From Tannerellaceae bacterium (GTDB lineage Bacteria; Bacteroidota; Bacteroidia; Bacteroidales; Tannerellaceae), in NCBI GenBank assembly GCA_031259845.1, contig JAIRKZ010000005.1, forward strand, positions 1 through 36,434: a DNA stretch of 36,434 bases, in the 5' to 3' direction. Position 1 is the stretch's first letter; every line of letters begins with the position of its first letter. Below are positions 6,173 to 33,703 of the stretch, piece after piece. Both the position numbers and the translations under genes were made by a program. Under the pieces are notes generated by a model. The model worked only from the letters and a program-made list of their open reading frames with translations, ran no database searches and was not told the origin of the DNA.

Positions 6173-6191
6173 CCGGGTATGTACTACCCGG
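6173..6191 (+). terminator. Hairpin after the permease operon
   Basis: CCGGGTA, a five-base loop and TACCCGG form a 7-bp stem that starts directly after the stop codon at 6172. No strong T-run follows on the plus strand, so it may be a weak terminator or an mRNA-stabilising hairpin. It lies between convergent transcription units. Confidence 0.45.
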
Positions 6192-6248
6192 CTATATAAA
6201 ATACCCCCAGTATAACAAAAGGTAAAACAAAGAGGGTAACGAGCAGCG

Positions 6249-6650: not shown

Positions 6651-7354
6651 CGCAGTTCTTTTTCTTTAAGTTTGAGGTATCCTATATACAATACAACGAT
6701 GGAGGTCGCCAGCATGACCGGTGTAAATAACTGCATCATAAATTTAAACGCCTTTCTGAGGTATGCGGCGTCTGCTACCGACCCATCAATAACCGCAGGT
6801 ACAATCTTCAGCGCTACGCCGGCAAACAACAGTACATAGAGCGCCATCCCCGTAAAGCCGATTAAAGTGGCATGCTTGCGGAAGGTGATATGAGACAGCA
6901 ATATCACAGACGAAATAAAGACCAACAGGACAGTAGGGGTAACTCCATCGTATAAACCGGACGGGGTAATCACACTGAAAGCAGGCGCCAGGAGCTTAAA
7001 CAGGAATAACCAAACCCAGAAAACCACGGTAAACGCCAGGAAGAACAACACGCCTTCAAGCAACAGCGTGAAATACTTTTCCTGGTTGCTGGCCGGAAGC
7101 GTATAATATAAACCTTTCGGCTGGTGGATTTTTTTGCCGGCAAAGCGGCAATAATAAATGAAAGTAACCAGTCCGCCTACATAGAAAAAGTTCCTCTGGT
7201 GGTTTGTTGCCAAATCGCCGGGGCCGGCGAAGTACAGGATAGCGATCCACACGAGCGAAACCCCGCCCAGGCAAAGCAGCAGGCTTTTCCTGTGTTCAAT
7301 CCAGTCGGCCTGCAAAAGATAGCCGATTCGCTTCAAATTAAAATAAGTATCCAT
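6647..7354 (-). CDS. ABC-2-like membrane protein of the GntR-linked exporter
   Basis: This 235-residue protein has about six membrane helices (near residues 27-45, 57-70, 97-123, 138-157, 163-187 and 206-226). No catalytic motif is seen. Its place between an ABC ATPase gene and a YtrA-type regulator identifies it as the membrane subunit of an ABC-2-type transporter. It overlaps the regulator by 4 bases, and the ATPase gene ends 11 bases before its start. The substrate is unknown; related systems are linked to envelope stress or bacteriocin tolerance, which is family knowledge only. Confidence 0.8.
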   Translation of the reverse strand: MDTYFNLKRIGYLLQADWIEHRKSLLLCLGGVSLVWIAILYFAGPGDLATNHQRNFFYVGGLVTFIYYCRFAGKKIHQPKGLYYTLPASNQEKYFTLLLEGVLFFLAFTVVFWVWLFLFKLLAPAFSVITPSGLYDGVTPTVLLVFISSVILLSHITFRKHATLIGFTGMALYVLLFAGVALKIVPAVIDGSVADAAYLRKAFKFMMQLFTPVMLATSIVVLYIGYLKLKEKELR

Positions 7355-9522: not shown

Positions 9523-12500
9523 GAATATTGGCGATAAGGGGGAAAAATCTCGCCTCCCTGGAAGGTGAATTTGAGATAGATTTTACAGCAGAACCATTAA
9601 AGTCTGCCGGCATTTTCGCAATAACCGGCAGCACCGGGTCCGGTAAGTCTACGTTACTTGATGCGCTTTGCCTCGCACTGTTTGACGATACCCCGCGCAC
9701 CAATCGCGCTTCTGAAAATAATATCCAGATAACAGATGTAAAAGATAAGACAATCAATCAAAAAGACAGCCGCAACATTCTAAGGCGGGGCACAAGCGAC
9801 GGGTATGCAGAAGTGGATTTCGTATCGCTCGGGGGAGAGAAATTCCGGAGCCGGTGGAGTGTAAGGCGATCACGCGATAAGGTAGGAGGCACGTTACAAA
9901 ATTCCGAACTAAGGCTGCTCAATCTTACAACAAATATAGAAGAGCAGGGACGGAAAACAGAATTGCTGGCAAAGATTGCAGGGCTGATTGGCTTGAGTTT
10001 CGACCAATTTACGCGGGCAGTCCTTCTGGCGCAAGGGGATTTCGCCACCTTCTTGAAAGCGACACAAAAAGAGAAAGCGGAACTTCTGGAGAAATTAACA
10101 GGGACAGAGGTCTATTCGCGTATATCTACCGTTATTTATGAAAAATCGAAAAACGCAGAGCAGGAAGTAAACCTGATACGGGAACGCATCAAGGATATTG
10201 AACTTCTTTCCGGAGAAGAAGTAGAAACGTTTGGCAGGGAGAAACTGTCCATTGTCAGGGAGACAGAGAGCCTGAAGAAAGAAATGGAGGCGCTGGCAAA
10301 TAAAATTAAATGGATAACAGACGGGGCTGCGTTAAACGCCGGCGTGAAAGAAGCGGAACAACGCCTGGCCGCCGCAATCAAAGCCATCGAAGAGGCAAAG
10401 CCCCGCTACGATTATCTGGCCCAGGTGGATAGCGTACAGGAAATAAGGGATAGCTTTAATGAACTGAAAACATCGGGCAAACAACTTACGGAATACAAAC
10501 GTAACCTTGCCGCACAGGAAAAGCTGCGGGATACGAATGCTTTGCGATTAGAACAATCAACCGGGGAGGTGGCCCTTTGTGAAAGCCGTTTGCTAAAGTT
10601 CGATGAAGAACTTAAAAACGTGGAACCCGAAATCAAACAGGCAAGAGAATTAGACATTCAGATAGCAGGGACGAAAAACGCCGCAGAAGAGGCTGAAAAA
10701 GAATACAATCAGGCCGCCGCGAAGAAGAGTAAACTTGGAGAATCTATCCTGAAGATACAGGCCTCTATCCTTTCTGCAAAAGAAATGGCTTCACAGGCCA
10801 GACTGTGGTTCAATCAGCATGAGCCATACAGGGAGATTATCCCCAGGGTAGAATTGATTGTTAATTTGCTCGACGATGCAACTGCGGCAAGTAAGCAAAA
10901 AGCGGATAACGAAAAAACCTTAGCTGCTTCCAATACCTTACTTGCCTCGGCAACAGTAAAACGGGCGGAATTGATAGCGGAGTCCGAACGGTTGAACAAA
11001 CTGCTCCCGGCAGAAGTTACCGCGCTGCGGCTAAGGCTGGAAGATGGAAAACCCTGCCCTGTTTGCGGAAGCGAACATCACCCGTATCGCAATATAAGCG
11101 GGGAAAGCCTGGTAGAGGCGGAGCTTAACAGCGCTAAAAAAGAGGTGGCCGGTAAAATAACGTTGCAGGATAACCGGATTGAAAGCCTCAAAAGTGAAAA
11201 CATCCGTTTAGCGTCGGTTATTGAAAACTATGCCAACCAGTGGGCCGAAGCAATGAATAAATTGGACACCTTCCTTGCCTTTCTCCCCGGTTGGAAAATG
11301 GCCTTTGAACAGGGCGCTTTGCAAAACCGGCTAAAATCAGTTGCCGGCGCCTGGAGTAAGAACGAATCAGCCTTACGCCGGGCGAATGAGCAGGAAACTA
11401 CCCTCCAGGCAAGTTTGGAACTGGGAAAAGAACAACTCCTTGAAGCCGGAGAAGCTTTTGCCGCTAAACATGAAAAGTATAAAAACACCCAAAAGGCGCT
11501 GGAGGAATTGCAGGAGAAAAGAGCCGGGATACTTCAGGGGAAAGCCCCCGGCGAGGTAGAGGAACAATATACCCGGAGGAAAAAAGAACTCTCCGCCACG
11601 CTTTCCCGTCTGAAAGAAGAGAAAAGTAAAATGCTTGCTGCAAAAGAAAAACAAGAGGGCGTAATCAAGCAAATCTCGCAGGAGATTTCGAGGCTGTCCG
11701 CACATTGCAATGAGTTGCAAATAGCAGTAGATACGTGGCTTTCTGCCAAGAATAAAGACCTTACAATAGAACGTTTATCCACCCTGCTGTCTGGGGATAA
11801 TACTTGGCTCATCGCCGAAAGAGAGTTGTTAAACCGCCTCCACCAGGGCAAAACCACCGCATTAGCCACGCTGGATGAACGGAAGAAAACACTCGGAAAT
11901 CATCAACTGCTGGAAAGTAAGCCGGCCGAAGGCGAAACGAAAGACAGCTTGCAGGAAACACTATCCGGCCGCCAGGAAGCGATGCGGCGTAACGCGGCCC
12001 GTAATACGGAGATTGATATCCTCTTGGCCAACCATGAGAAGGGAAAAGAGCGGATTGCTTTGTTCGAAAAGGAATTGAACGAAAAGTCCGCCCTGTCCGG
12101 GAACTGGAAAAAATTAAACGAAATGTTCGGTTCGGCCGATGGCTCAAAGTTTAAAGTCCTGGCCCAAGGCTATACGCTGGATGCACTGCTCGCTTATGCA
12201 AACAAACACCTCCGCGAACTTTCCAAACGCTATGAAATACACCGTATACCCGATACATTAGCCCTGCAGGTGGCAGACCTTGACATGCTGGGCGAAGTCC
12301 GCACGGTACATTCCCTGTCCGGCGGCGAATCTTTTCTGGTATCACTGGCCTTAGCCTTAGGCCTCTCATCCCTTTCATCAAACCGGATGAAAGTAGAATC
12401 CCTCTTCATAGACGAAGGCTTTGGTTCGCTCGATATAGACACCCTGCGGATAGCAATGGACGCTTTGGAGCGACTGCAAACCCAGGGACGCAAGATAGGC

Positions 12501-12596
12501 GTCATCTCGCACGTAACGGAAATGACCGAACGCATTAACGCCCAAATCCAGGTGCTTAAAACAGTCAACGGCAGAAGCCGGATCGAAATAAGGTGA
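9519..12596 (+). CDS. sbcC: Exonuclease SbcCD subunit C (SMC/Rad50-like ATPase)
   Basis: This 1025-residue ATPase has the Rad50 layout. Walker A GSTGSGKS is at residues 37-44. Long coiled coils run from about 185 to 860. A zinc hook CPVCG is at 513-517 in the middle of the coil. The signature LSGGES is near 933 and Walker B LFIDEGFGSLD near 960-970. The length is close to that of other SbcC proteins. The protein dimerises through its heads and the zinc hook and gates DNA access to SbcD. It starts inside the sbcD stop region and ends 30 bases from a convergent pseudogene. Confidence 0.95.
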   Translation: MRILAIRGKNLASLEGEFEIDFTAEPLKSAGIFAITGSTGSGKSTLLDALCLALFDDTPRTNRASENNIQITDVKDKTINQKDSRNILRRGTSDGYAEVDFVSLGGEKFRSRWSVRRSRDKVGGTLQNSELRLLNLTTNIEEQGRKTELLAKIAGLIGLSFDQFTRAVLLAQGDFATFLKATQKEKAELLEKLTGTEVYSRISTVIYEKSKNAEQEVNLIRERIKDIELLSGEEVETFGREKLSIVRETESLKKEMEALANKIKWITDGAALNAGVKEAEQRLAAAIKAIEEAKPRYDYLAQVDSVQEIRDSFNELKTSGKQLTEYKRNLAAQEKLRDTNALRLEQSTGEVALCESRLLKFDEELKNVEPEIKQARELDIQIAGTKNAAEEAEKEYNQAAAKKSKLGESILKIQASILSAKEMASQARLWFNQHEPYREIIPRVELIVNLLDDATAASKQKADNEKTLAASNTLLASATVKRAELIAESERLNKLLPAEVTALRLRLEDGKPCPVCGSEHHPYRNISGESLVEAELNSAKKEVAGKITLQDNRIESLKSENIRLASVIENYANQWAEAMNKLDTFLAFLPGWKMAFEQGALQNRLKSVAGAWSKNESALRRANEQETTLQASLELGKEQLLEAGEAFAAKHEKYKNTQKALEELQEKRAGILQGKAPGEVEEQYTRRKKELSATLSRLKEEKSKMLAAKEKQEGVIKQISQEISRLSAHCNELQIAVDTWLSAKNKDLTIERLSTLLSGDNTWLIAERELLNRLHQGKTTALATLDERKKTLGNHQLLESKPAEGETKDSLQETLSGRQEAMRRNAARNTEIDILLANHEKGKERIALFEKELNEKSALSGNWKKLNEMFGSADGSKFKVLAQGYTLDALLAYANKHLRELSKRYEIHRIPDTLALQVADLDMLGEVRTVHSLSGGESFLVSLALALGLSSLSSNRMKVESLFIDEGFGSLDIDTLRIAMDALERLQTQGRKIGVISHVTEMTERINAQIQVLKTVNGRSRIEIR

Positions 12597-19945: not shown

Positions 19946-20055
19946 TATAATGCCTTGAGTAAAGCATTATAGTGTCTTGAGTAAAGCGCTATAATGGTTT
20001 TGTCAAACGGCTATAATGGTTTACTCAAGGCGCTATGATGATTTTTTTAACAATT
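19946..20055 (+). repeat. 22-bp tandem repeats (iteron-like)
   Basis: Units begin TATAATG or TATAGTG at 19946, 19968, 19990 and 20012, with a decayed fifth (TATGATG) at 20034. The period is exactly 22 bases. The inner part changes from TTGAGTAAAGC to TTTGTCAAACGGC and TTTACTCAAGGCGC. A period of two helical turns would place bound protein on one face of the DNA. The period is not a multiple of three, so coding is unlikely. Confidence 0.7.
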
Positions 20056-20075
20056 GTGGGGATTAATCGTATTTA

Positions 20076-20105
20076 CCGTCATTAGCCGTCATTAGCCGTC
20101 ATTAA
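20076..20105 (+). repeat. Three 10-bp direct repeats
   Basis: CCGTCATTAG occurs at 20076 and 20086, and CCGTCATTAA at 20096. They sit between the 22-bp repeats and the promoter of the next gene. The rest of 19655-20175 shows only the palindrome, the 21-bp repeats, an A-rich tract and the promoter. Confidence 0.7.
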
Positions 20106-20130
20106 GAGACAAACGGGTTTTGGGAGGTGG

Positions 20131-20138
20131 TATATTTG
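20131..20138 (+). promoter_or_regulatory. -7 box upstream of the HU-YgiQ fusion gene
   Basis: TATATTTG fits the Bacteroidetes -7 box and lies 37 bases before the ATG at 20176. No -33 TTTG is found at 19-20 bases. A second -7-like TACCTTTG at 20279-20286 lies inside the ORF, 6 bases before the internal ATG at 20293. Confidence 0.45.
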
Positions 20139-20175
20139 CACCGTCAGCAATCAGTAACTTTAAAATTTCACAGGT

Positions 20176-22134
20176 ATGGCATTAAAATTCAAAGCGCGTA
20201 AAGCGCCGGGTGGCGGCGAAAAGGGAACATCCGGGTATTATGCCGTGGCCAAAGGCGTAGGATGCGCCGGAAAAATCACTACCTTTGCCCCCATGAACCC
20301 GTATCAATCAAACGCCTGGCTACCCACCACCAAAAAGGAAGTAGAGGCCAGGGGCTGGGATTACCTGGATGTTATACTCTTTAGCGGTGATGCCTATGTA
20401 GACCACCCTTCCTTTGGAGCTGCCGTAATCGGGCGTTTGCTCGAATCCGAAGGCCTGCGCGTAGCGATCGTTCCCCAACCCGACTGGCATGGCGATTACC
20501 GCGACTTCAGGAAATTAGGCGCCCCCCGCCTCTTCTTCGGCGTATCGCCCGGGGCAATGGATTCGATGATCAATCATTACACTGCCAATAAGCGTCTGCG
20601 CAGCGACGATGCCTACACGCCCCTCCGCCGCCCCGGTATGCGTCCAGATTACCCCAGTATCGTTTATACCAACATACTGAAAGAATTATATCCCGACACT
20701 CCGGTTGTATTGGGAGGAATCGAAGCCTCCCTCCGCCGCCTCACCCATTACGACTACTGGCAAGACAGGTTAAAACCGGGTATCCTCATCGAAAGCCATG
20801 CCGATTTGCTAATCTACGGTATGGGCGAACAACCCCTCCGCGAACTGGTAAAACGAATAAGGAACGGAGAACGCTTTCAAGCGATAAAGAACATCAGGCA
20901 AACAGCCCATATAGCCCCCCACCCCACCGAAGGGAAAGCCGGAAGCGAATCCGGAGGCCCCGACATCCTCCTCCACTCCCACGAAGAATGCCTGAAAGAT
21001 AAACGGAAGCAAGCCGAAAACTTCCGCCACATCGAGCAGGAATCCAATAAATATGAAGCCTCGCGTATCATACAGCAAACCGGCCGCCAATGGATAATTA
21101 TCAATCCGCCCTTCCCTCCCATGAGGCAGGATGAAATAGACGCCTCCTTTGATTTACCCTATACCCGTTTGCCCCACCCCAAATATAAAGGCAAGGAAAT
21201 CCCGGCTTTCGAGATGATAAAACATTCCGTAAACCTTCACCGGGGATGCTTCGGGGGATGCGCTTTCTGTACCATCTCCGCCCACCAGGGCAAGTTTATC
21301 GCCTCACGCAGTAAAGAATCCATATTGAAAGAAGTAAAAGCCGTGATAAATACGCCCGGTTTCAAAGGCTACCTGACCGACCTGGGAGGGCCTTCGGCAA
21401 ATATGTACCAGATGAAAGGAAAAGACGAAGCAATCTGCCGTAAATGCCGCAAACCTTCCTGCATACACCCCATTATCTGCAAAAACCTGCATGCCAGCCA
21501 TACGCCAATGCTTGATATCTACAAAGCGGTAGACAATTTACCGGGGATAAAGAAGTCATTTATCGGTAGCGGCCTGCGTTACGACTTGCTGCTGCACAAC
21601 TATGAAGAGGAAGAACAGAATAAATCGGCCCAAGCCTATATGGAAGAACTGATAACCCGGCATATCTCCGGCCGTTTGAAAGTAGCGCCCGAGCATACAG
21701 AATCCGGGGTATTAAAGATTCTGAGAAAGCCCCCTTTCGAACTGTTCGGTCGCTTCAAACAAGTGTTCGAACGCATCAACAAACAACACGGGCTAAACCA
21801 GCAACTGATTCCCTATTTCATCTCCAGCCATCCCGGCTGTACGGAAGCAGACATGGCTGCGCTGGCCGTTGAAACGAAAGGATTAAATTTCCGCCTTGAG
21901 CAGGTACAGGATTTTACCCCCTCGCCCATGACATTGGCCACAGAAATATACTACACCGGATATCACCCCTACACATTAGAAAAAGTATACACCGCCCGGA
22001 GCAAAGAAGAGAAGTTAGCGCAGCGCCAATATTTCTTCTGGTATAAGCCGGAGTTCCGTAAACAAATAACCCATTCCCTGCAACGTCTGAAGAAGAATGA
22101 TTTAATAAAGAAATTGTTTGGGCGAGCACAATAA
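20176..22134 (+). CDS. YgiQ-family radical SAM protein with an HU-like N-terminal extension
   Basis: The 652-residue reading has two parts. Residues 40-652 are a full YgiQ protein: LPTTKKEVEARGWDYLDVIL and SGDAYVDHPSFGAAVIGRLL at the start, the radical SAM cluster motif CFGGCAFC (CxxxCxxC) after NLHRG, and the C-terminal DUF3362-type end with VYTARSKEEKLAQRQYFFWY. YgiQ proteins carry a 4Fe-4S cluster and SAM; their reaction is unknown. Residues 1-39, MALKFKARKAPGGGEKGTSG, then YYAVAKGVG, look like the first strand of an HU/IHF-type DNA-binding protein of Bacteroidetes. The native start is probably the ATG at 20293 (MNPYQSNAW). Both starts are in the same frame. Confidence 0.9.
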   Translation: MALKFKARKAPGGGEKGTSGYYAVAKGVGCAGKITTFAPMNPYQSNAWLPTTKKEVEARGWDYLDVILFSGDAYVDHPSFGAAVIGRLLESEGLRVAIVPQPDWHGDYRDFRKLGAPRLFFGVSPGAMDSMINHYTANKRLRSDDAYTPLRRPGMRPDYPSIVYTNILKELYPDTPVVLGGIEASLRRLTHYDYWQDRLKPGILIESHADLLIYGMGEQPLRELVKRIRNGERFQAIKNIRQTAHIAPHPTEGKAGSESGGPDILLHSHEECLKDKRKQAENFRHIEQESNKYEASRIIQQTGRQWIIINPPFPPMRQDEIDASFDLPYTRLPHPKYKGKEIPAFEMIKHSVNLHRGCFGGCAFCTISAHQGKFIASRSKESILKEVKAVINTPGFKGYLTDLGGPSANMYQMKGKDEAICRKCRKPSCIHPIICKNLHASHTPMLDIYKAVDNLPGIKKSFIGSGLRYDLLLHNYEEEEQNKSAQAYMEELITRHISGRLKVAPEHTESGVLKILRKPPFELFGRFKQVFERINKQHGLNQQLIPYFISSHPGCTEADMAALAVETKGLNFRLEQVQDFTPSPMTLATEIYYTGYHPYTLEKVYTARSKEEKLAQRQYFFWYKPEFRKQITHSLQRLKKNDLIKKLFGRAQ

Positions 22135-22148
22135 AACGCCTATCTTTG
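22117..22148 (+). promoter_or_regulatory. Bacteroidetes-type promoter of the signalling cluster
   Basis: TTTG at 22117-22120 is followed by 20 bases and TATCTTTG at 22141-22148. The -33 part overlaps the end of the ygiQ-like gene. The LytTR gene starts 37 bases downstream. Confidence 0.7.
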
Positions 22149-22185
22149 TGCACTATTAACAAAAAGGGAAACTCAACAGTTACAG

Positions 22186-22575
22186 ATGGAGCGTTATTTA
22201 ATCATTAAAACAAGAGATGAATTGTTGCGTATAAAGATAGGCCAGATACTTTACTTTGAGGCTGACAGGAATTACACTAAACTACTCTTATCAAATGGAA
22301 TCCAGTTTACATTCGCTATTAATATAGGCAAGATTGAAGAAATATTGGAAAAGCAGGTAGCAGGCAGTAGCAGTATCCTGATGCGCGTGGGTAAAAGCCA
22401 TATCATCAATAAAGACCATATTTTACAGATAAATTTACCCAAGCAACGATTGCTGCTTTTAACAGGCGAAGGGAAACCCAAAGAATTAGTCATATCCAAA
22501 GACCCGCTGAAAACATTGAAAGATTCATTTGAAAAAGAAATGGGAAAAGCAGCCGGAGAGGAAGGAACAAAATAA
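22186..22575 (+). CDS. Stand-alone LytTR DNA-binding domain protein
   Basis: This 129-residue protein is almost entirely a LytTR domain: LLRIKIGQILYFEADRNYTKL at the start, then FTFAINIGKIEEIL, and MRVGKSHIINKDHILQINLP in the final third, matching the LytTR pattern (R-x-x-K-S-x-I-x-N). There is no receiver domain or membrane part, so input must come from a partner or the domain acts alone. It is the first gene after a strong promoter and lies 2 bases before the FHA protein gene, so both are one operon. It may regulate the signalling cluster itself. Confidence 0.88.
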   Translation: MERYLIIKTRDELLRIKIGQILYFEADRNYTKLLLSNGIQFTFAINIGKIEEILEKQVAGSSSILMRVGKSHIINKDHILQINLPKQRLLLLTGEGKPKELVISKDPLKTLKDSFEKEMGKAAGEEGTK

Positions 22576-22577
22576 CA

Positions 22578-23231
22578 ATGGAAATAACAATAGGGAAAGC
22601 CGGAGATAATGATTTCGTAGTAAACGACCCTCATGTAAGCAGGTATCATGCGCGCCTGTTGCGTGATGAAGAAGGATGTCTGTTTTTGGAAGACAGGGAT
22701 TCTACCAACGGTACGTTTGTCAACGGCAGCCAGATTGTAAAGAAAAAAGTGTCTCCCACGGATACCATATTACTCGGGGAAACATACAGGTTGCACCTTT
22801 CCGAAGTATTAAAAGCCGGCAATGATTATAGCGAAGATTTTGCCCGCCTGAAAGAGATATACGATACATATATTGAGCAAAAAGTAAGGATACAATCCAC
22901 CAATCAGTTCAAGACGCGTTTGTTTCAAACCCTGCCGTTTGCTTTTATTGGCGTCACAGGCGTCTTAATCAGCACATTGGGAAAGGGAAGCGCCCTTTTG
23001 TTCGGGATAAGTTTATTTGTTGCGATTTGTGTGCCTGTAGCCGGTATTTACCTGGGAGCAAAACAGTCGGCTAAGATACCCCGCCAGTTGCAAGACCTTT
23101 CCAACCGGTTCAAAATAGATTATGTATGCCCTAAATGCGGAACCTTTCTGGGAGAAGTTCCCTGGGAATCGTTGTCTAACCGGAAGCAATGCCCGGTTTC
23201 GTCGTGTAAGGCTAAATGGGTAAAGGATTGA
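22578..23231 (+). CDS. Membrane FHA-domain protein with zinc-ribbon tail
   Basis: This 217-residue protein has an N-terminal FHA domain (residues 1-80) with the phosphothreonine-binding motifs VSRYHARL (S21, H24) and DSTNGTFVNG (N44, G45). A helical linker follows. Two membrane helices lie at about 115-133 and 139-160. The C-terminal part has CPKC (184-187) and CPVSSC (205-210), a likely zinc ribbon. The FHA domain and the ribbon should both be in the cytoplasm. It may anchor phosphorylated partners at the membrane. The nearby kinase, PP2C and second FHA gene suggest a common phosphothreonine pathway. Confidence 0.88.
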   Translation: MEITIGKAGDNDFVVNDPHVSRYHARLLRDEEGCLFLEDRDSTNGTFVNGSQIVKKKVSPTDTILLGETYRLHLSEVLKAGNDYSEDFARLKEIYDTYIEQKVRIQSTNQFKTRLFQTLPFAFIGVTGVLISTLGKGSALLFGISLFVAICVPVAGIYLGAKQSAKIPRQLQDLSNRFKIDYVCPKCGTFLGEVPWESLSNRKQCPVSSCKAKWVKD

Positions 23232-23323
23232 CACTTTGTATACCAAAACCACCCTTTTGTACAGTAAACGGGATTGTATGATTAATAGGTTACTTTTCGC
23301 AAAAGCGCAATTAATACTTTTTC

Positions 23324-23331
23324 TACCTTTG
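23324..23331 (+). promoter_or_regulatory. -7 box upstream of the acidic protein gene
   Basis: TACCTTTG matches the Bacteroidetes -7 box and lies 30 bases before the ATG at 23362. No good -33 is seen at 19-20 bases. Confidence 0.5.
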
Positions 23332-23361
23332 CCACATAAATTATGAAATAAATAATTTTAT

Positions 23362-23601
23362 ATGCAGGAAGAAGAATATACATTCGTTACGATTGATAGC
23401 GACGATTCCCTGTTTCCGGATGCTGTTGTCATAGATATGGATAGCAACGATGATTTGGAGGGGATAGTAACTATTGATGAAAGCATGGACGCTTCGGATT
23501 TCATTACCCTTGCGGATGATACGATCATGCTTTCAGACGCTGATATGATTGATACCTATTCAAGCGACATCAGCGATATGGACATTTCAATCATGATATG
23601 A
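23362..23601 (+). CDS. Small, very acidic protein without basic residues
   Basis: The 79 residues hold 19 Asp and 5 Glu and no Lys, Arg, His, Cys or Trp. Short degenerate repeats recur: FVTIDSDDS, then IVTIDES, then FITLADDTIMLSD. I know no family for it. The gene is supported by a -7 box upstream and by a 4-base stop/start overlap with the zinc-ribbon FHA gene at 23598. The motif DDTIMLS (residues 52-58) is nearly the same as DDTIVLS in the linker of the kinase encoded at 27825. A threonine followed at +3 by Leu is an FHA-binding type of site. I infer a multi-site kinase substrate or scaffold for the FHA proteins. The function is not known. Confidence 0.7.
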   Translation: MQEEEYTFVTIDSDDSLFPDAVVIDMDSNDDLEGIVTIDESMDASDFITLADDTIMLSDADMIDTYSSDISDMDISIMI

Positions 23602-24116
23602 TTGCTGTTAAATGTCCACATTGCCATGTAGGATTGAAGGTAGATGAAAAGAAGTTGCCTTCCGGTATTACTTCCTTCAAATGCCCTAAATGCAAGCGTC
23701 TCATCCCCGTCTCCATGCTTTCGCAGAAAGAAGGAGACGGGACTTCTTCGCCTGATACCGCCTTATTGCATCCCCAGAAAAAAGGAACCGGCAGGATAAC
23801 CGTCTTGCCGGATGCCGGGACAGCCCAGCAGGTCTTTCCCCTCACTGAAGGCGTTTCCATCATCGGGCGGAAATCTACCAAGCCTTCCCTCGCAACAATC
23901 AGCATTGAAACAACCGACAGGTCGATGAGCCGCGAACATATCCGGATAGAAGTAAAAAAAGACCCAAAAGGAGGCTATAAGCATTATCTTTCCGACAATA
24001 ACAGTAAAAACCATACGTTATATAATAGCAATTACTTAGGAGAAGGTGAAGAGGTAATATTGAATAATAATGAAGAGATTATCATAGGCCGTACCGTACT
24101 CCGTTTTAACGAATAA
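23598..24116 (+). CDS. Zinc-ribbon FHA-domain protein
   Basis: This 172-residue protein starts with a zinc ribbon of the MJ0042 type: CPHC (residues 6-9) and CPKC (29-32). A linker follows, then an FHA domain (about 80-170) with SIIGRKS, SMSREHIRI (S111, H114) and an N-x-x-N-H-T segment in place of the usual N-G. It has no membrane helix or signal. It overlaps the acidic protein gene by 4 bases, so the two are translated together. It probably binds phosphothreonine made by the cluster kinase. Its last 50 codons are repeated downstream of the GH78 gene. Confidence 0.88.
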   Translation: MIAVKCPHCHVGLKVDEKKLPSGITSFKCPKCKRLIPVSMLSQKEGDGTSSPDTALLHPQKKGTGRITVLPDAGTAQQVFPLTEGVSIIGRKSTKPSLATISIETTDRSMSREHIRIEVKKDPKGGYKHYLSDNNSKNHTLYNSNYLGEGEEVILNNNEEIIIGRTVLRFNE

Positions 24117-24142
24117 ACGTATTGCTGTTATGAACATTACAA
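23967..24142 (+). repeat. 176-bp direct repeat, left copy
   Basis: This copy covers the last 50 codons of the zinc-ribbon FHA gene and the first bases of a PP2C start (ATGAACATTACAA). It matches 26817-26992 over 176 bases with 6 differences by eye, five of them in the first third. The repeats flank the GH78 gene exactly. Confidence 0.9.
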
Positions 24143-24169
24143 GTCGAAATATCCTTAAAAAACACACCC

Positions 24170-26812
24170 ATGAAAAAACTATTTTTCCATCTGATTTTAA
24201 TCTGTTTATGTTCATGCCAAGGAAGGAATGCCGGCATATACGACATTCGTTGTGAAAACCTTACAAATCCGTTGGGTATCGCTACCGATGCGCCGCGTTT
24301 CAGCTGGAAAGCCGGTTCGTTTACTGACGGCGACGGTCAGACGGCGTATCAAATTATGGCGGCAAGCAGTCTTTCGCTTTTGCAGGAAGACAAGGCGGAC
24401 TGGTGGGATTCGGGGAAAACCGCCTCTACAGAATCAGTGTTAGTCCCGTATTTGGGCGCCAAACTGTTGCCGGGGATGGTCGTCTATTGGAAAGTCCGGG
24501 TCTGGAATAAAGACGGGAATGCTTCCCTGTGGAGCGAACCGGCTCATTTCAGCATCGGTCTGTTGAATCCGGGAGACTGGAGCAGCAAATATATCGGATT
24601 GTCGAAGGATGACGGCGAACAACAAAGTCCACTGTTACGAAAACAGTTCGATTTAACCGAGGCGTCGGGGATATTTTTGTTACATATCAATTCGTTAGGC
24701 TACCATGAAGTTTATATGAACGGGAAAAAAGCCGGCGATTATGTGCTTGTTCCGGCGGTTTCGCAGTTCGGCAAACGTTCGCTCGTTGTAACTTACAACG
24801 TGTCGGAATATATTCGTAAAGGGCATAACGACTTGGTTATATGGCTTGGAAAAGGATGGTATCATTCGGATTTGCCCGGCGTTGTTCACGAGGGTCCTGT
24901 TGTAAGAGCGCAACTCGAACAGACGCTGGACAAAAAACGTAAGACACTGCTTGTTACCGATGAATCATGGCAGGGGCATGAAAGCGGATATTCCGATTTG
25001 GGAACGTGGAAGCCATGGGGTTTCGCCGGAGAAAAGATAGACGCTTCTATCGTACCGGCTTCGTTTTCGTCTGCCGGGCTGGATAAACTTACGTGGAAAA
25101 ATGCCGCCGTAATCGACGTCCCTGAACACGCGGCGACGCCACAAATGACCGAAAACAACCGGATTATGAAAACGATGAAGCCGGCAGAACTGTCGCGTAC
25201 AGGCGAGGGAGCATGGCTGGCGGATATGAGTGAAACATTGACCGGCTGGGTAAAAGTGAAATTCCCCAAACTGCAGGCAGGACAGGAAATCGTCTTAGAA
25301 TATTGCGACCATCTCGACAACGGAAAATTTGTTGACCAAGGACAGAAAGACATCTATGTCGCTTCCGGTGAAACGGATGAAACATTTTGCAACAAGTTTA
25401 ATTATCACAGTTTTCGTTATCTTAAAATAAGCGGACTGCAACAAATCGAACCTGAAAATATATCCGGTATGTTGATTCACACCGCTTACCGGGCGGCCTC
25501 GTCGTTTGAATGTTCCGACGAGGAAATGAATGCCATTCACAGTCTGGTACAACATGCCTTGCATTGCCTGAGTCTCGGCGGTTATCTGGTTGACTGCAAT
25601 CATTTTGAGCGCCTGGGTTACGGAGGCGACGGTCATGCATCGACTGTTACGGCGCAAACCATGTTCGACCTTGCACCGCTGTATGCCAACTGGTTGCAGG
25701 CATGGGGCGACTGTATCCGCGACGACGGCGGATTGCCTCACACAGCGCCAAATCCTTACGCCGCCGGCGGAGGCCCTTACTGGTGTGCTTTTATAGTGAC
25801 CGCTCCGTGGAGCGCATACATTCACTATAATGACCGCCGTTTTTTGGAAAAATATTATCCGGTGATGAAACATTGGATACAGTATGTGGACGCATATACG
25901 GTTGACGGTCTGTTGAAACGCTGGCCCGACCTTGATTACAGAGCCTGGTATCTGGGCGACTGGGCAACCCCGAAAGGCGTTAATCAAACCGACGCAGCAT
26001 CTGTTGATATTGTAAACAACTGTGTAGTGAGCGAATGTTATGCTATTATGGAGAAAATAGCGCATCTGCTCGGCAAAGACGATGAGGCAAACGGGTTTTC
26101 GGAACGTAAATCAAAACTGAACAGGAGGATACAGGAGACGTTTTTCGATGAAACGATGTCGAACTATGCGAGTGGATCGCAAATTGATCTTGTGTATCCG
26201 ATGCTTGTTGGAGCAACTCCTGCGAATGTGACGGAAAATGTTGTAAAACGACTGTTTGCCGAAACAGAAGAAAAACATAAGGGACATTTCGCTACGGGTT
26301 TGGCTGGTATCCCGACGCTTGTAGAATGGGCTGTCCGGCAAAATCATCCCGATTTTATTTATTCCATGCTGAAAAAACGGGATTATCCGGGTTATCTCTA
26401 TATGATTGACAACGGAGCAACTGCAACATGGGAACACTGGGACGGAGACCGCAGTCATATTCACAACTGTTACAACGGAATAGGCGCATGGTTTTATCAG
26501 GCAATCGGAGGTATCCGGGCCGACGAAAACGCTCCGGGATATAAACGTGTTATTATAAATCCCCAAATTCCTCAGGGCATCGTTTGGGCTAAAACGACGA
26601 AAGATACGCCATACGGCGCTGTTGTTGTCAACTGGCAACTGAATAACAACGTCCTGGATGTGGAAATCGTCATCCCTTCCGGAAGCGCGGCAACGGTAAT
26701 TCATCCAAAAAACGCTCGTGAATATTCGTTGTCAGGCTCTGTCAGGCAAACCGGCGAAGAGAAACAAATGGAGTTGGGTAGTGGAAAATTCAAGATAACG
26801 TACGTCATGTAG
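24170..26812 (+). CDS. GH78 alpha-L-rhamnosidase lipoprotein
   Basis: This 880-residue protein begins with a lipoprotein signal (LFFHLILICLCSCQG, lipidated Cys at about residue 16). It continues with the GH78 start IRCENLTNPLGIATDAPRFSW. The order is N-terminal beta domains, the (alpha/alpha)6 barrel at about 440-770, then a C-terminal beta sandwich. The catalytic loop DCNHFERLGYGGDG carries the conserved acids D475, E480 and D487. Near 755 the usual TATWEHWDGD segment is also present. The enzyme should release terminal alpha-L-rhamnose from plant or bacterial glycans at the cell envelope. It has no susCD pair nearby and interrupts the signalling cluster between two 176-bp repeats, so it is likely a late insertion. 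Confidence 0.93.
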   Translation: MKKLFFHLILICLCSCQGRNAGIYDIRCENLTNPLGIATDAPRFSWKAGSFTDGDGQTAYQIMAASSLSLLQEDKADWWDSGKTASTESVLVPYLGAKLLPGMVVYWKVRVWNKDGNASLWSEPAHFSIGLLNPGDWSSKYIGLSKDDGEQQSPLLRKQFDLTEASGIFLLHINSLGYHEVYMNGKKAGDYVLVPAVSQFGKRSLVVTYNVSEYIRKGHNDLVIWLGKGWYHSDLPGVVHEGPVVRAQLEQTLDKKRKTLLVTDESWQGHESGYSDLGTWKPWGFAGEKIDASIVPASFSSAGLDKLTWKNAAVIDVPEHAATPQMTENNRIMKTMKPAELSRTGEGAWLADMSETLTGWVKVKFPKLQAGQEIVLEYCDHLDNGKFVDQGQKDIYVASGETDETFCNKFNYHSFRYLKISGLQQIEPENISGMLIHTAYRAASSFECSDEEMNAIHSLVQHALHCLSLGGYLVDCNHFERLGYGGDGHASTVTAQTMFDLAPLYANWLQAWGDCIRDDGGLPHTAPNPYAAGGGPYWCAFIVTAPWSAYIHYNDRRFLEKYYPVMKHWIQYVDAYTVDGLLKRWPDLDYRAWYLGDWATPKGVNQTDAASVDIVNNCVVSECYAIMEKIAHLLGKDDEANGFSERKSKLNRRIQETFFDETMSNYASGSQIDLVYPMLVGATPANVTENVVKRLFAETEEKHKGHFATGLAGIPTLVEWAVRQNHPDFIYSMLKKRDYPGYLYMIDNGATATWEHWDGDRSHIHNCYNGIGAWFYQAIGGIRADENAPGYKRVIINPQIPQGIVWAKTTKDTPYGAVVVNWQLNNNVLDVEIVIPSGSAATVIHPKNAREYSLSGSVRQTGEEKQMELGSGKFKITYVM

Positions 26813-26816
26813 GGAT

Positions 26817-26966
26817 AAAGGAGGGTATAAACATTATCTTTCCAACAATAATAGTAAAAAACATACGTTATATAATAGCAATTACTTAGGAGAAGGTGAA
26901 GAGGTAATATTGAATAATAATGAAGAGATTATCATAGGCCGTACCGTACTCCGTTTTAACGAATAA
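26817..26966 (+). pseudogene. Repeated C-terminal fragment of the zinc-ribbon FHA gene
   Basis: Fifty codons, beginning KGGYKHYLSNNNSKKHT and ending GRTVLRFNE and a stop, repeat the end of the gene at 23598 with a few substitutions (D to N, N to K). There is no start codon. The fragment follows the GH78 stop by 4 bases and directly precedes the PP2C gene, so it is what is left of the original FHA-PP2C junction or of the incoming copy. Confidence 0.85.
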
Positions 26967-26992
26967 ACGTATTGCTATTATGAACATTACAA
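26817..26992 (+). repeat. 176-bp direct repeat, right copy
   Basis: The right copy matches 23967-24142 at an offset of 2850 bases. Here the PP2C start continues into an intact gene, whereas after the left copy the sequence diverges within five codons of the same start. So the right end is the native FHA-PP2C border for PP2C. Confidence 0.9.
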
Positions 26993-27786
26993 TAGGAAAA
27001 TCTTGTGCAATCAGTGAGAAAGGCGGCAAGCCAACTAATGAAGACGCTATTTACCCGCAGCCGGAAGCTGTAAAGCTTACGCAGAAATTGTTTTTAGTAT
27101 GCGACGGAGTAGGCGGGGCCGAAAAAGGAGAAATTGCAAGTTCGTTAGCCTGCGATTATTTCCAATGGTACTTTTTAAATATGCCGGAAGAAGACAAGCC
27201 TACCCCTGAATTTGTAAGGAAAGCGTTGCGCTATACGGAAATAAAATTCGATGAATACACCGCCGAACATCCCGAAGCTACCGGAATGGCTACTACGCTG
27301 ACGATGCTGTATGCCGGTTGCCGGGGAATAACATTGGCGCACGTTGGCGACAGCCGGATTTACCACTTCCGCGAAGGCAGGATAATGTATAAGACCGAAG
27401 ACCATTCATTAGTTAATTCTTTGATACAGGCAGGGCGGATAACTCCCGAAGAAGCCCGCAACCATCCCCGGCGAAATGTGATAACACGCGCCCTGCAGGG
27501 AGCCAAACACCCCTCGGAAGCCGACATAGTCTTATTGGATGATATAGAATCTGGCGATTACTTTTTTATGTGTACCGACGGTGTGATGGAAAATTTTACC
27601 GACGAATCCCTGGCGGCTCTTTTCAAAGGCAAAGCGGCTTCGGAAGTTATTAAAGATGCCCTGATGGAAACTTGCGACGGAAAAACCCGCGACAACTTCT
27701 CTTTTTACATTATTCCCATTCAAAATGTGCAAGAATCGGATAGTGTTAAGCAAAATATTCTGTCATTCTTTTATTCTTTTATATAA
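26980..27786 (+). CDS. PP2C-family protein phosphatase
   Basis: This 268-residue protein has the PP2C metal-binding motifs: TNEDA (E21, D22), CDGVGG (D42), GMATTLTML, HVGDSRIYHF, CTDGVMEN (D200) and RDNFSFY (D238, N239). It is a soluble phosphatase of the Stp/PrpC type. The family removes phosphate from Ser/Thr proteins using two manganese or magnesium ions. It lies 38 bases before the kinase gene, so it most likely reverses the action of that kinase. Its start is shared with the truncated copy at the left repeat. Confidence 0.94.
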   Translation: MNITIGKSCAISEKGGKPTNEDAIYPQPEAVKLTQKLFLVCDGVGGAEKGEIASSLACDYFQWYFLNMPEEDKPTPEFVRKALRYTEIKFDEYTAEHPEATGMATTLTMLYAGCRGITLAHVGDSRIYHFREGRIMYKTEDHSLVNSLIQAGRITPEEARNHPRRNVITRALQGAKHPSEADIVLLDDIESGDYFFMCTDGVMENFTDESLAALFKGKAASEVIKDALMETCDGKTRDNFSFYIIPIQNVQESDSVKQNILSFFYSFI

Positions 27787-27792
27787 ATAACG

Positions 27793-27800
27793 TATTTTTG
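27793..27800 (+). promoter_or_regulatory. -7 box upstream of the kinase gene
   Basis: TATTTTTG matches the Bacteroidetes -7 box, 24 bases before the ATG at 27825. No -33 TTTG is at the right distance, so it may be a weak internal promoter of the cluster. Confidence 0.35.
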
Positions 27801-27824
27801 GCGTAAAATAAGTGCGCTACGAGT

Positions 27825-29582
27825 ATGAATTTACCTACCGGGCATTGCCTCCAAAACAGAAAATACCAGCTATTGCATGTAGTTGGACAGGGAGGGTTTG
27901 GTATTACATATAAAGGAATTTTGCATACTGAAGTGAAAGGGCCATTAGGGAAAATAGAAACGGAAGTCCCTATCAGTATCAAAGAATATTTTTTTAAAGA
28001 CTACTGTTACCGGGTAGCGGATACCTGCGCAGTCGGCGTTCATTCGGAAACGGGAAAGCTGCTTTTTGATAAATTCAGGGAAAAGCTTATTAAAGAGGCG
28101 AAAATATTGTCGGACGTACATCATCCGTATATCGTAAACGTGCTTGACGTTTTTGAAGAGAATAATACGGCCTATATCGCGATGGAATATATCGAAGGCC
28201 ATTCATTGAAAGATATACTCGAAAAAAAAGGTATCCTCCCGGAAGAAAAAGCCTTGAAATATATTCATCAGATAGGGCAGGCGCTACAGTTTGTTCACGA
28301 TAAGAATATTCTTCACTTGGATATCAAACCCAGTAATATACTGATTGACAAGAACGATAATGCCCGCCTGATAGACTTTGGGGTAAGTAAAAGGTATGAT
28401 GTGGAGAACAGGGAAACCAGCACGACGATGCTGACTTTGTCGAAAGGTTTTGCCTCTATCGAACAATATGACAATGAAGGGACGCAGGTTTTTTCTCCCT
28501 GCCCGGATATTTATTCGCTGGGCGCTACGATGTATAACCTGCTGACCGGAAAGATACCGACAGAATCTATATTAAGGGCTGCCAGACCGTTGAAGAATCC
28601 TTCGGAACAGAATCCGTCTATAACTCCCAGGACGGAAGAGGTTATCCTGAAAGCCATGCAGATTAGCCCGGCAGACCGTTTCCAAACGATAGCCGAAATG
28701 ATGGAAGCGCTGGATATACCTCCGGTTGAAGATGTAAAGAAGAGTGACACCTCCCGGGAGCCGCCTGAAGAAAATGATGATGACACCATCGTGCTTTCTC
28801 CGCCGAAACAAACGGCCAGGCCAGATGATGAACAGACGATGAAGAAGAAAAAGAAAAAAAAGACATGGATAATAGCGTTAATTTGTATCTTTGCGCTGAT
28901 AGGCTCGTCTGTTGCTTTACTTATAGGGAATAACGGCCCGGATCCGATAGAATTACCGCCGGAAATAGTAAGTAATGAAAACTCCGATCCCAATCAACCG
29001 GTAACGAACGAGCTGTTGCAAACAAGTGAGACAACGGCAAGACAGGTGAATAACCGTGAGGAATCCAAGCCGGCTATACCTTCAGGGGAAGGGAATATAC
29101 AACAACCGGAGGCAGGTATTCGGCAGGGAGAGAATCCGGGAGAAGGAAACGAAGAATTACCGGAACTTTCCCCGGAAGAAAAGGAAAATCAGTATAGGGG
29201 GTTAGTGACTTCGGGAAAGCAGAAAATGAACCAGGCGGATTTTGCAGGAGCGGCCGGAGATTTTAATAAGGCGAAAGAACTTAAATTAACCGAAGAGGTG
29301 ATTCGTTTAAGTGTTGCCAACGAAGAGAAAGCGGAAGAAAAACGTATTGCTGATAAAAAAGCTTTATATGAAGAGAAGATGACTTTTGGAAATTATAAAA
29401 TAGTACGTAAGAAATCGACCGGAAGATACGGGGCGATAGACGATAAAGGCGAAGAAAAAATACCGTGTAAATATGTAAGCGTTGATATCGCCGGCGAAGG
29501 CCGTGCGTTTGAACGGGAAGATAAGTTATTTGATATCTATAATACGAGTGGAGTATTAGTGAAGAGTGATGTAATGTATTAA
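27825..29582 (+). CDS. Transmembrane Ser/Thr protein kinase
   Basis: This 585-residue protein has a Hanks-type kinase domain (residues 12-297). The glycine loop is GQGGFG (21-26), the lysine K53, the helix-C glutamate E91, the catalytic loop HLDIKPSN (D166) and the DFG motif at 184-186. The loop reads HLD, where HRD is common. A linker rich in acids and Pro follows, with DDTIVLS at 319-325. A lysine-rich stop and a membrane helix follow at 348-367. The extracytoplasmic part has a Pro/Glu-rich spacer, a TPR-like helical stretch (about 460-515) and a C-terminal WG-like repeat (GRYGAIDDKGEEKIPCKY). The kinase probably senses an envelope signal with this part. PP2C and FHA genes are neighbours. 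Confidence 0.93.
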   Translation: MNLPTGHCLQNRKYQLLHVVGQGGFGITYKGILHTEVKGPLGKIETEVPISIKEYFFKDYCYRVADTCAVGVHSETGKLLFDKFREKLIKEAKILSDVHHPYIVNVLDVFEENNTAYIAMEYIEGHSLKDILEKKGILPEEKALKYIHQIGQALQFVHDKNILHLDIKPSNILIDKNDNARLIDFGVSKRYDVENRETSTTMLTLSKGFASIEQYDNEGTQVFSPCPDIYSLGATMYNLLTGKIPTESILRAARPLKNPSEQNPSITPRTEEVILKAMQISPADRFQTIAEMMEALDIPPVEDVKKSDTSREPPEENDDDTIVLSPPKQTARPDDEQTMKKKKKKKTWIIALICIFALIGSSVALLIGNNGPDPIELPPEIVSNENSDPNQPVTNELLQTSETTARQVNNREESKPAIPSGEGNIQQPEAGIRQGENPGEGNEELPELSPEEKENQYRGLVTSGKQKMNQADFAGAAGDFNKAKELKLTEEVIRLSVANEEKAEEKRIADKKALYEEKMTFGNYKIVRKKSTGRYGAIDDKGEEKIPCKYVSVDIAGEGRAFEREDKLFDIYNTSGVLVKSDVMY

Positions 29583-29591
29583 TTGTAGTAT

Positions 29592-30503
29592 ATGAAGAAA
29601 CTTTGGTTGTTGATTTTTGCTGTAATTCCATTTTGTGTAATCGCTCAACAGCAAACCGAATATAACAGAAAAGGCGACGAGGCCATGAAACGGCTCGATT
29701 ATAGCGACGCCAGGCTTTTTTATGGAGAAGGCGTCCCGTATTGCGATATATATAGTATTAATCAACTGACAACTATCTGGATTGCCAATGAACAAATGCG
29801 CACTTCCATGCATAACCAGATGAGCCGTTGCCTGAGTTGCCTGAGTGTGAAAGCAACGGAAAACGACGTAACGGCCGTGTCCAAACTCATATTATATTAT
29901 ACGGAAGGTATCGGAACCCCGAAAAGCGAGGAATTGGCTTCCTATTGGGCCGACCGGCTGGAAGAATTGAAAAATCCCGTCCCGGATAATACCGGATATG
30001 AGAAGCCGCCCCGTACCCCCATGCGGTTTTTTGGCGGTTATACCTATTCGCAGTGCATGCCGTTTGGTATTACAGTAGGCGGCGTGGGCGAACGCATCGG
30101 TTGGTATGCCCGCTTTAAAACAAATATGTCTTTCCAACGCTTTGATTCTGAATATTCCGGCAAAGGCCCTAACAGTGTAGATAGATTTATACCTCTCGAA
30201 GAGAAAAGAAATGCTTATGCGGCCACAGCCGGTTTGGTGGTAAAATGCACTTCGTGGCTTTACGCTTCGGTTGGCGCGGGTTACGGAAAGCGGGACGTGC
30301 TTTATCTGTTGTCTAAACAGATAAAGCCTTCAGGGGAGGAGGTTGAAAGGGGATGGTATAAAGTGGCGGATTCGTCACACAATGGCGTTTCGGCCGATTT
30401 GGATATTATGCTGCGTTACGGTTTCCTGTATATAAGCGCAGGCTGTAATACGCAAAATTTTAAATACATAGATTTAAACGCAGGTGTTGGCGTGTTTTTT
30501 TAA
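29592..30503 (+). CDS. Exported TPR/beta-barrel protein of the kinase cluster
   Basis: This 303-residue protein has a signal peptide (MKKLWLLIFAVIPFCVIAQ). A helical part follows with EYNRKGDEAMKRLDYSDARLFYGEGVPYCD, of TPR/Sel1-like character. From about residue 140 it is rich in alternating aromatic beta strands (FFGGYTYSQCMPFGITVGG and on) and ends in Phe (GVGVFF), typical of a small outer-membrane barrel. It starts 9 bases after the kinase stop, so it is in the same operon. It could be an envelope partner of the kinase. I do not recognise a named family. Confidence 0.75.
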   Translation: MKKLWLLIFAVIPFCVIAQQQTEYNRKGDEAMKRLDYSDARLFYGEGVPYCDIYSINQLTTIWIANEQMRTSMHNQMSRCLSCLSVKATENDVTAVSKLILYYTEGIGTPKSEELASYWADRLEELKNPVPDNTGYEKPPRTPMRFFGGYTYSQCMPFGITVGGVGERIGWYARFKTNMSFQRFDSEYSGKGPNSVDRFIPLEEKRNAYAATAGLVVKCTSWLYASVGAGYGKRDVLYLLSKQIKPSGEEVERGWYKVADSSHNGVSADLDIMLRYGFLYISAGCNTQNFKYIDLNAGVGVFF

Positions 30504-30513
30504 TGAAACGAGT

Positions 30514-32682
30514 ATGAAACGTATAGATACATTCTTTTTATTCATTACCGGTATTTGGTTGTTTTATGCTTGCCTGAACGATCCGGAGATGCCGGATATC
30601 ATAAATGGCAGCGAACCGGTAATTCAGATTGATACAATCATGGACATCAAGGCTAATTCCTTGAAAATTCATGCGAGTATAACCGATCAGGGCGGTTTGC
30701 CCGTATCGGAAAAAGGATTTTCATGGACAGACGATAAAGGAAATACGGGAAATCTGCCGGTAGTTGGTAAAAAGGAAGGGGGGCTTATCAGACTTGATAC
30801 GATAATCGCCGGCCTGGAAAAAGAAACGGTCTACACCTTTACGGCATACGCAGAGAATGGAATAGGCAAAGGGTTAAGCGCTTCTAAAACAGAACAGACA
30901 GGGAATGGTTTAGGACTGGTGCGAACACTCAAACCGGATAGTATAAGAGGAACGTCCGTTTGGGCCGGAGGATTGATTCTGGATAAGGGAGAAGGGGAAA
31001 TAACAGAACGGGGTATTTATTTTTATAAAAATGAGGAAATGAAGGAGATGGGTTCCAAGCGTCCGTTTCTTCTTTCACAGGCAGACTCTTTTGTCTTTAA
31101 ATTAGACAGTTTAATGCCCAATACGACTTACTATATAAAAGCATACGCCATGAACGCCTTCGGGACATTTTCCCAAAGCAACGGCGAGACCTTCCGAACG
31201 TCTGACGGAAAACCTTCAATTGCTTTATTCCAGATAACCGGAACCGGATTTGTAGATGCTTCATTTAATGTGGAAATTGAGGATGAAGGCGATTCCCTTG
31301 TCACTGTGCGCGGCGTATGCTGGTCGGAAGCGCCTAAATCGTACCCTACCATTCAGGATGATACGATTGTTGTAAATTCCGGCGATAAATCTTTCTCGGG
31401 AAGTATAAAAGGGCTTAAATCCTACACAAAGTATTATGCCCGCGCTTTTGCAACCAATGCTTTTGGCACGGAGTACAGTAGTAATGTGGCGGAATTTACG
31501 ACGGAAAATAATATGCCGGAAGTAGAAACGGGGGAAGTTGTATTTATAAAAGACGGGACTGCCATGGTCAGAGGAAATATTAAGAAAATAGGCATGGGGG
31601 CTATCGATATATTTGGCTTTTGCTATTCTACCAGCCCGAATCCTACTATCTCAAACAAGGTGACAATCATCCCTAACGAGGGCCAGATAGAAGGCCCTTT
31701 CACCGGTTCCATCATTGAACTGAAAGGCAATGCTACCTATTATGTAAAAGCTTTTTTAAGGAATACAAGCGGTTTGACAGCTTATGGAGAAGAAATTACA
31801 GTGAATACAGCCCCGATATTTACCCAAATGGCCTCTTTTACGGGAGTACGTCTGCCTAATTCAAGCGCTTCGTTCTCAATAGACCCGATAGGATATATGG
31901 CAGGAGGCGATTTAGGCGCTAAATATACGAATGAACTGGTGGCTTATAATTCGATAGATAACAGATGGGATAACCTGGAACCCATGCAGGGCGGCGCCGA
32001 TTCGGAAAGAATAGGGCAGACAGCCGTGGCGGTGAATGGCGTTGCTTATGTACTGGGAGGCGTGAATAAAGCGGGAAAACGGACAAATAACCTGTATCGT
32101 TATTATCCTGCTTATAACAGGTGGGAAACTGTTACGGCCCCGTCGGGCCCGGATTCGCTACGTTCGGCCACAGGGTGTTCAACCGGCTACGATGCTTATT
32201 TTATAGGAGGACGCCGTGATACAGTCATGGATGAAGTATGGCGTTTCAATACATCCGCTTTATCCTGGACGCAGATGGAGAATTTTCCCGTCAAACAGTA
32301 TAGCGGCATAGCCGTTACGATAGACGGCGCGGTATACGCCGGCTTGGGTTTGACAAATTTATCGGGGACAACGTCTCACAAAAGGTTATGGAAATCTACC
32401 GATAACCTGAATAGCTGGACGGAACTGGCTCCCTTATCAACCGGCGGAATTGTCAGGGGGGCAGTTGTTTATAATAATTCCATTTATGTGGTAGATAATA
32501 CGGCAAGTTTGTGGATGTATAATATAGCAGAAAACACATGGTATGAAAAGTCCGAACTTCCCCCTACTCATTTCCGGGGCGATGCACAACATTGCATGTT
32601 TTTATTGAACGAGAAGATTTATATAGGGCTTGGAAGTTCAAACACTACGTTATACCAATACAACCCTGCTTGGGATAATTAA
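30514..32682 (+). CDS. Lipoprotein with FN3-like and kelch repeats
   Basis: The start at 30514 gives 722 residues with a lipoprotein signal and Cys20 in FYACLND. A longer reading from 30484 would put extra residues before the signal, so I prefer 30514. The first 430 residues hold four FN3-like modules with YTFTAYAENGIG, then YYIKAYAMNAFG, YYARAFATNAFG and YYVKAFLRNTSG at their ends. The last 290 have kelch motifs such as GVAYVLGGVNKAGKRTNNLYRY and a six-bladed propeller pattern. It is a likely surface or periplasmic binding protein. It follows the barrel gene by 10 bases. Confidence 0.85.
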   Translation: MKRIDTFFLFITGIWLFYACLNDPEMPDIINGSEPVIQIDTIMDIKANSLKIHASITDQGGLPVSEKGFSWTDDKGNTGNLPVVGKKEGGLIRLDTIIAGLEKETVYTFTAYAENGIGKGLSASKTEQTGNGLGLVRTLKPDSIRGTSVWAGGLILDKGEGEITERGIYFYKNEEMKEMGSKRPFLLSQADSFVFKLDSLMPNTTYYIKAYAMNAFGTFSQSNGETFRTSDGKPSIALFQITGTGFVDASFNVEIEDEGDSLVTVRGVCWSEAPKSYPTIQDDTIVVNSGDKSFSGSIKGLKSYTKYYARAFATNAFGTEYSSNVAEFTTENNMPEVETGEVVFIKDGTAMVRGNIKKIGMGAIDIFGFCYSTSPNPTISNKVTIIPNEGQIEGPFTGSIIELKGNATYYVKAFLRNTSGLTAYGEEITVNTAPIFTQMASFTGVRLPNSSASFSIDPIGYMAGGDLGAKYTNELVAYNSIDNRWDNLEPMQGGADSERIGQTAVAVNGVAYVLGGVNKAGKRTNNLYRYYPAYNRWETVTAPSGPDSLRSATGCSTGYDAYFIGGRRDTVMDEVWRFNTSALSWTQMENFPVKQYSGIAVTIDGAVYAGLGLTNLSGTTSHKRLWKSTDNLNSWTELAPLSTGGIVRGAVVYNNSIYVVDNTASLWMYNIAENTWYEKSELPPTHFRGDAQHCMFLLNEKIYIGLGSSNTTLYQYNPAWDN

Positions 32683-33628: not shown

Positions 33629-33629
33629 G

Positions 33630-33703
33630 TGACCGCGACAGGATTCAAACCTGTAACCGGCTGATCCGTAGTCAGCTACTCTATTCAATTGAGCTACGCG
33701 GCC
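33630..33703 (-). tRNA. tRNA-Arg (anticodon ACG)
   Basis: The minus strand folds into a full cloverleaf of 74 bases. The acceptor arm is GGCCGCG with CGCGGTC plus the discriminator A. The anticodon stem is GCTGA/TCAGC with loop CTACGGA, so the anticodon is ACG. The T loop is GTTTGAATC. CCA is not encoded. The terminator starts two bases later. Confidence 0.95.

Follow-up and report, generated by a model that had tools for sequence, protein, structure and literature searches.

A gene for a predicted alpha-L-rhamnosidase of family GH78 separates, in the genome of a Tannerellaceae bacterium, an FHA gene and a PP2C-type phosphatase gene that adjoin each other in its relatives, and the reading preferred here (probability about 0.7) is that this gene came from another Bacteroidales lineage and was inserted at the FHA–PP2C junction by a joining that duplicated 176 bp of the target. 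The stretch of DNA analysed, called the window (36,434 nucleotides), is one contig of one MAG, whose assembly comprises 204 contigs and 3,662,425 bases and is 87% complete. The locus contains the following features:

23324..23331, plus strand: TACCTTTG, a match to TAnnTTTG, the consensus of the Bacteroidales -7 promoter box, and the sole such match within 23200–24200
23362..23601, plus strand: acidic ORF of 79 aa, the first gene after the box at 23324, with no Pfam match
23598..24116, plus strand: complete FHA gene, with zinc ribbon and FHA domain (PF00498, 1.4e-10)
23967..24142, plus strand: left copy of the 176-bp direct repeat, spanning the final 150 bp of FHA, the spacer and 13 bp from the beginning of PP2C
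24130..24255, plus strand: duplicated and now dead PP2C start, at which an out-of-frame ORF of 41 codons begins, overlapping the start of GH78
24143..26816, plus strand: insert of 2674 bp, missing at the same site in relatives
24170..26812, plus strand: GH78 alpha-L-rhamnosidase gene (predicted activity), 880 aa, assigned by its Pfam families, with a lipoprotein-type signal (LCSC) read by eye
26817..26992, plus strand: right copy of the 176-bp repeat, in which a dead piece of the FHA end is followed by the spacer and start that PP2C uses
26980..27786, plus strand: intact PP2C-type phosphatase gene (PP2C_2, 8e-12)
27825..29582, plus strand: serine/threonine protein kinase gene (Pkinase, 3.4e-42), next in the cluster after PP2C

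Elsewhere in the window, a pair of SbcD-like and SbcC-like genes lies at 8338–12596, and a tRNA-Arg (acg) is found on the minus strand at 33629–33703, with the signalling cluster on one side and a patatin/Omp85 gene on the other. The segment 13001–20000 is low in GC (0.31–0.41 per kb, against 0.40–0.57 elsewhere) and carries minus-strand genes that include a methyltransferase, a GyrI-like protein and an AraC-type regulator; it is possibly another acquired block.

The direct repeat that the initial annotation had reported at 23967–24142 and 26817–26992, with six mismatches counted by eye, is exact as described: 176 bp are aligned without gaps and with 6 substitutions (96.6% identity). A repeat-finding tool gave 183 bp, the extra 7 bases bringing 3 more mismatches. 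The repeat breaks off sharply at both edges of the insert, which is composed of 27 bp, one GH78 gene (880 codons and the stop) and 4 bp, and the space between the copies is indeed occupied by this gene. Also as annotated, the right copy continues into a complete PP2C gene, and the left copy retains only the first 13 bp of it; since the left copy preserves the whole FHA gene and the right copy the whole PP2C gene, neither gene has been broken. A search of the whole genome with the repeat returned the second copy (E 5.3e-79) and no third site. No second direct repeat of at least 60 bp and at least 85% identity, with copies 400–9000 bp apart, accompanies the 176-bp pair in the window, nor does any of at least 60 bp and at least 85% identity, at a spacing of 300–10000 bp, occur in 11 further stretches of this genome (206,629 bases, each scanned alone), picked because earlier matches had fallen on their contigs. 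In line with the remark that the repeats contain no transposase or inverted ends, the insert ORFs of at least 100 aa are GH78, the only sense one, and three antisense to it, and no inverted repeat of at least 30 bp lies within 20000–32000. The marks of an integrase or a transposon, looked for in this way, were thus not found.

The comparison proposed with the annotation, a search for an empty FHA–PP2C site in relatives, found that site. Among 123 genomes of the family, an FHA match at E 1e-25 was obtained in 105 (18 have none) and a PP2C match at E 1e-70 in 104. Both matches lie on one contig and in the same orientation in 104 genomes, and the gap between them is 11–203 bp in 103 of these; the sole exception is the window's own genome, with 2866 bp. 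Three gaps, assessed from match coordinates, exceed 100 bp, namely 116 (G017), 151 (G146) and 203 bp (G105), the latter two between partial matches (the FHA match of G146 is cut at residue 127, and the PP2C match of G105 starts at residue 76). A further genome, G012, has an FHA match and no PP2C match above the threshold, but a weaker, broken PP2C match is found 27 bp away. The two relatives L004 and L005 cross the site uninterrupted, with 94% and 89% identity on both sides. The GH78 gene therefore does sit in a conserved junction that the window's genome, alone of the 104, has filled, and the locus combines an empty, unduplicated site in close relatives with a 176-bp target repeat at both edges of the insert, two features of insertion with long target duplication. 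The insertion would date from after the split of the species from its nearest sampled relatives.

The inserted gene matches five Pfam rhamnosidase families along its length (best 1.3e-90), and relatives of its protein with solved structures are 6i60, 3w5m and 6gsz. In the 17 other genomes of the genus, several of them incomplete, no full-length GH78 above 34% identity was found; 14 of the 17 give some GH78 match, with a few short pieces at 38–49%. Over the 123 family genomes, the best other match reaches 83% (G121, on the same contig as L036), followed by matches of 61% and below, and among 393 genomes of the order, drawn evenly, five besides the window's own match the insert DNA, partially and at 66–69%. 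Closest to the inserted gene are L035 (labelled Prevotellaceae, Nc350_bin194) and L036 (Tannerella, Nc350_bin189); each has 83% protein identity, and the DNA identities are 86–87% and 85%, respectively. In a quick-method tree of 60 rows, these two (L036 with its duplicate L063) and the window's GH78 form one group with support 100, and the GH78 genes of the genus itself fall elsewhere. The available DNA of L035 and L036 has no match by blastn at E 1e-10 to other DNA of the window beyond GH78 and its immediate upstream, and the ORFs neighbouring GH78, read by eye, are unlike in all three genomes. Against L035, dN is 0.089 and dS 0.43, and the dN/dS near 0.2 points to purifying selection in this clade (the branches measured include the relatives). 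Because the dS of GH78 to L035 and L036 (0.43–0.52) exceeds the 0.17–0.20 found for the window's FHA and PP2C against L004, neither L035 nor L036 would be the immediate donor; we infer that the donor was another Bacteroidales lineage, of an unsampled clade near these two. The window's genome also holds two adjacent further GH78 genes (G000:C26:34585-37131 and 38607-41180, the first partly in L135), which share 49% and 33% identity with the insert's GH78, and a genus relative has GH78 pieces with stops between them, 35–48% identical (G008:C70:83624-84845), apparently a broken gene.

The relatives are also informative about the left edge of the insert. When positions 24143–24162 are aligned with the L035 upstream, 18 bases match and two single-base gaps are needed; the score, 28, is higher than any that 2000 shuffles reached (26 at most). 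No match to the L036 upstream was obtained (1781 of 2000 shuffles score as high). In the alignment with L035, the following stretch of L035, with the box TAACTTTG, is absent from the window. Given that blastn paired the 12 bp just before the start codons of the window and L035 directly, that is, in a different way, loss of the box stretch in the window is likely rather than shown. The insert being without the TAnnTTTG box that relatives carry 34–37 bp before the gene, GH78 is probably read from the promoter of the signalling cluster.

The six sites at which the copies differ (23975, 23981, 23994, 24002, 24011, and 24127) bear on the origin of the duplicate. The nearest relatives (L004, L005, and L085) have C A G T C A at these sites, the left copy C G G C C G and the right copy G A A T A A; after the duplication both were altered, each departing from the nearest-relative haplotype at three of the six. 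In the left copy, two changes are silent in FHA and the third puts G for A at 24127, position -3 relative to the dead PP2C start, where A is found in 12 of 12 genus loci examined. In the right copy, one change is silent and the other two are D133N and N138K in the FHA fragment, where all 35 distinct relatives have D and N (sequences left from 48 loci after 13 identical rows had been dropped, the loci being best matches out of the 105 genomes with an FHA match). As the changes are silent or fall in the jobless half of each copy, they fit one in-place duplication followed by decay, and these sites, only six in number, favour an origin of the duplicate in the recipient's own target and not in the donor. 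The copies differ from each other at 6 of 176 sites, against 10 differences of either copy from L004 and 8 from L005, which makes the duplication younger than those splits and not very recent.

These sites also weigh on the rival that survives best, an improbable one in our judgement, in which a donor molecule, circular or other, already bore GH78 beside the FHA–PP2C junction of a related strain and entered by a single homologous crossover (Campbell type), so that part of one repeat would be foreign. Such an integration would give the same end structure. Three of the changed states also turn up in less close relatives of the 35 (6 have G at 23975, 2 have C at 24002, and 18 have G at 24127), so that the direction of these three changes rests on the nearest relatives. 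Moreover, five of the six differences are within the first 45 bp, a bunching at one end that a crossover inside the repeat could leave; the resulting identical run of 115 bp (probability 0.010 under random placement, calculated post hoc) needs either gene conversion or chance, and hints at later gene conversion between the copies. Against a foreign repeat stand the three departures of each copy from the nearest relatives and also D133N and N138K, which alter invariant residues and would be odd in a working donor gene but are expected in a dead fragment. In addition, in the available DNA of L035 and L036 nothing matches the window at E 1e-10 outside GH78 and its immediate upstream. The entry by homologous recombination from a partly diverged donor with the same FHA end, as initially suggested, is consequently not favoured.

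Another alternative, which we regard as quite unlikely, is that the end of FHA and the beginning of PP2C were first duplicated as a short tandem repeat and that GH78 was inserted between the copies later. Small tandem duplications are common in bacteria and this order of events gives the same end structure, but it requires two events with coinciding edges, and none of the 103 other genomes has a gap suggesting a bare 176-bp duplication (by match coordinates, the three gaps above 100 bp included). An assembly artefact, with a collapsed repeat, or an excised circle and an empty site, rendered as an integrated gene, appears very improbable: the genome is an incomplete assembly of many contigs, the 115-bp identical core is close to the word length of short-read assembly, and a circle plus an empty site would give the same joins, but a plain artefact should yield identical copies, and the six differences fall on the sides that an integrated gene leads one to expect.

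Returning to insertion with duplication of the target, the structure would require joins at two target points 176 bp apart, with the intervening stretch retained left and right of the insert. Candidate routes are template switching, staggered breakage, and illegitimate joining to the sister chromosome, and in our reading the joining would be illegitimate joining or template switching at the staggered points 24142/24143 and 26816/26817, with no transposase involved. Ku-dependent end joining was considered and is less likely: no Ku gene was matched in 18 of 18 genus genomes, many of them incomplete and four at least 90% complete, the controls of this search being positive in 1 of 14 genomes (Bacillus subtilis). 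Once in place, GH78 could plausibly be excised by a single crossover between the repeats.

Mobile carriers of GH78, and comparable repeats at its relatives, have also been sought. A phage search gave no match to GH78, no viral contig matched its peptide patterns (which reach close relatives only), and the two plasmid matches were to other GH78 genes (64–65% over 35–38% of the query). At 58 GH78 loci (L024–L081; two are the same contig and many have short flanks), 56 have no repeat of at least 60 bp and at least 85% identity at 400–9000 bp, the exceptions being L035 and L078. The L035 pair (43–119 and 6666–6742, 77–78 bp, 6.6 kb apart, with shorter kin nearby) is rejected as a flanking duplication, since it belongs to an interspersed repeat. 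The 230-bp pair of L078 (97% identity; L145:4982-5211 and 5971-6200, in G107) lies just upstream of the GH78 relative, holds the end of a 318-aa neighbour gene, and looks like a remnant of tandem duplication of that gene's end. Just after the GH78 gene of L036, a tandem array with a period of about 20 bp is found (L036:4043-4253), and two weak short pairs occur in L036 as well. Three genomes with three unrelated loci allow the tentative, rather doubtful proposal that GH78 genes of this small clade move among Bacteroidales as bare single genes with no mobile element, the move into the window having left a long target duplication, kept both neighbours whole and placed the enzyme under the promoter of a signalling operon.

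On its sequence features, the locus fits best the class of insertion with long target duplication, known mainly from restriction-modification genes. The cases of this class in Helicobacter pylori are not known to involve recombinases. The class was reportedly described there by Nobusato et al. in 2000, and later papers describe such insertions in H. pylori as often tied to restriction-modification genes (PMC1643837, PMC4978471, PMC3031569, PMC3154945). As in the cases that these papers describe, the gene is present in one of two compared genomes and has a long direct target duplication on both sides; those, however, are frequently restriction-modification genes and come from strains of one species, whereas in the window, part of a Bacteroidales MAG, the gene encodes a carbohydrate enzyme and the age of the copies allows them to be polarised. 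Among the matches listed in a literature search, by title and abstract opening, no glycoside hydrolase case of such insertion in Bacteroidales appeared. Transposed genes of Arabidopsis are likewise single genes at new sites with flanking direct repeats that match the orthologous target site, although this is movement within a plant genome, which the authors prefer to explain by circles arising between tandem repeats (PMC2869330). Homology-facilitated illegitimate recombination also puts foreign DNA into a chromosome with an illegitimate join, but one end is joined by homology, and the window case has no known homologous anchor in the donor (PMC3240628). Finally, incoming DNA causes tandem duplications during transformation of Streptococcus pneumoniae, but these require pre-existing repeats and span about 100 to 900 kb (PMC3784515). 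In the window one can read how a gene for a carbohydrate enzyme entered a conserved operon where no mobile element is seen, and how a foreign enzyme gene can sit inside a host operon without breaking either neighbour. Since each copy of the repeat seems to have aged in its jobless half, it is possible to place the event in time and to test the donor-homology model against it. Set beside these systems, it looks like a clean, fairly old instance of a known but rare route of single-gene entry, ordinary in kind and unusually readable.
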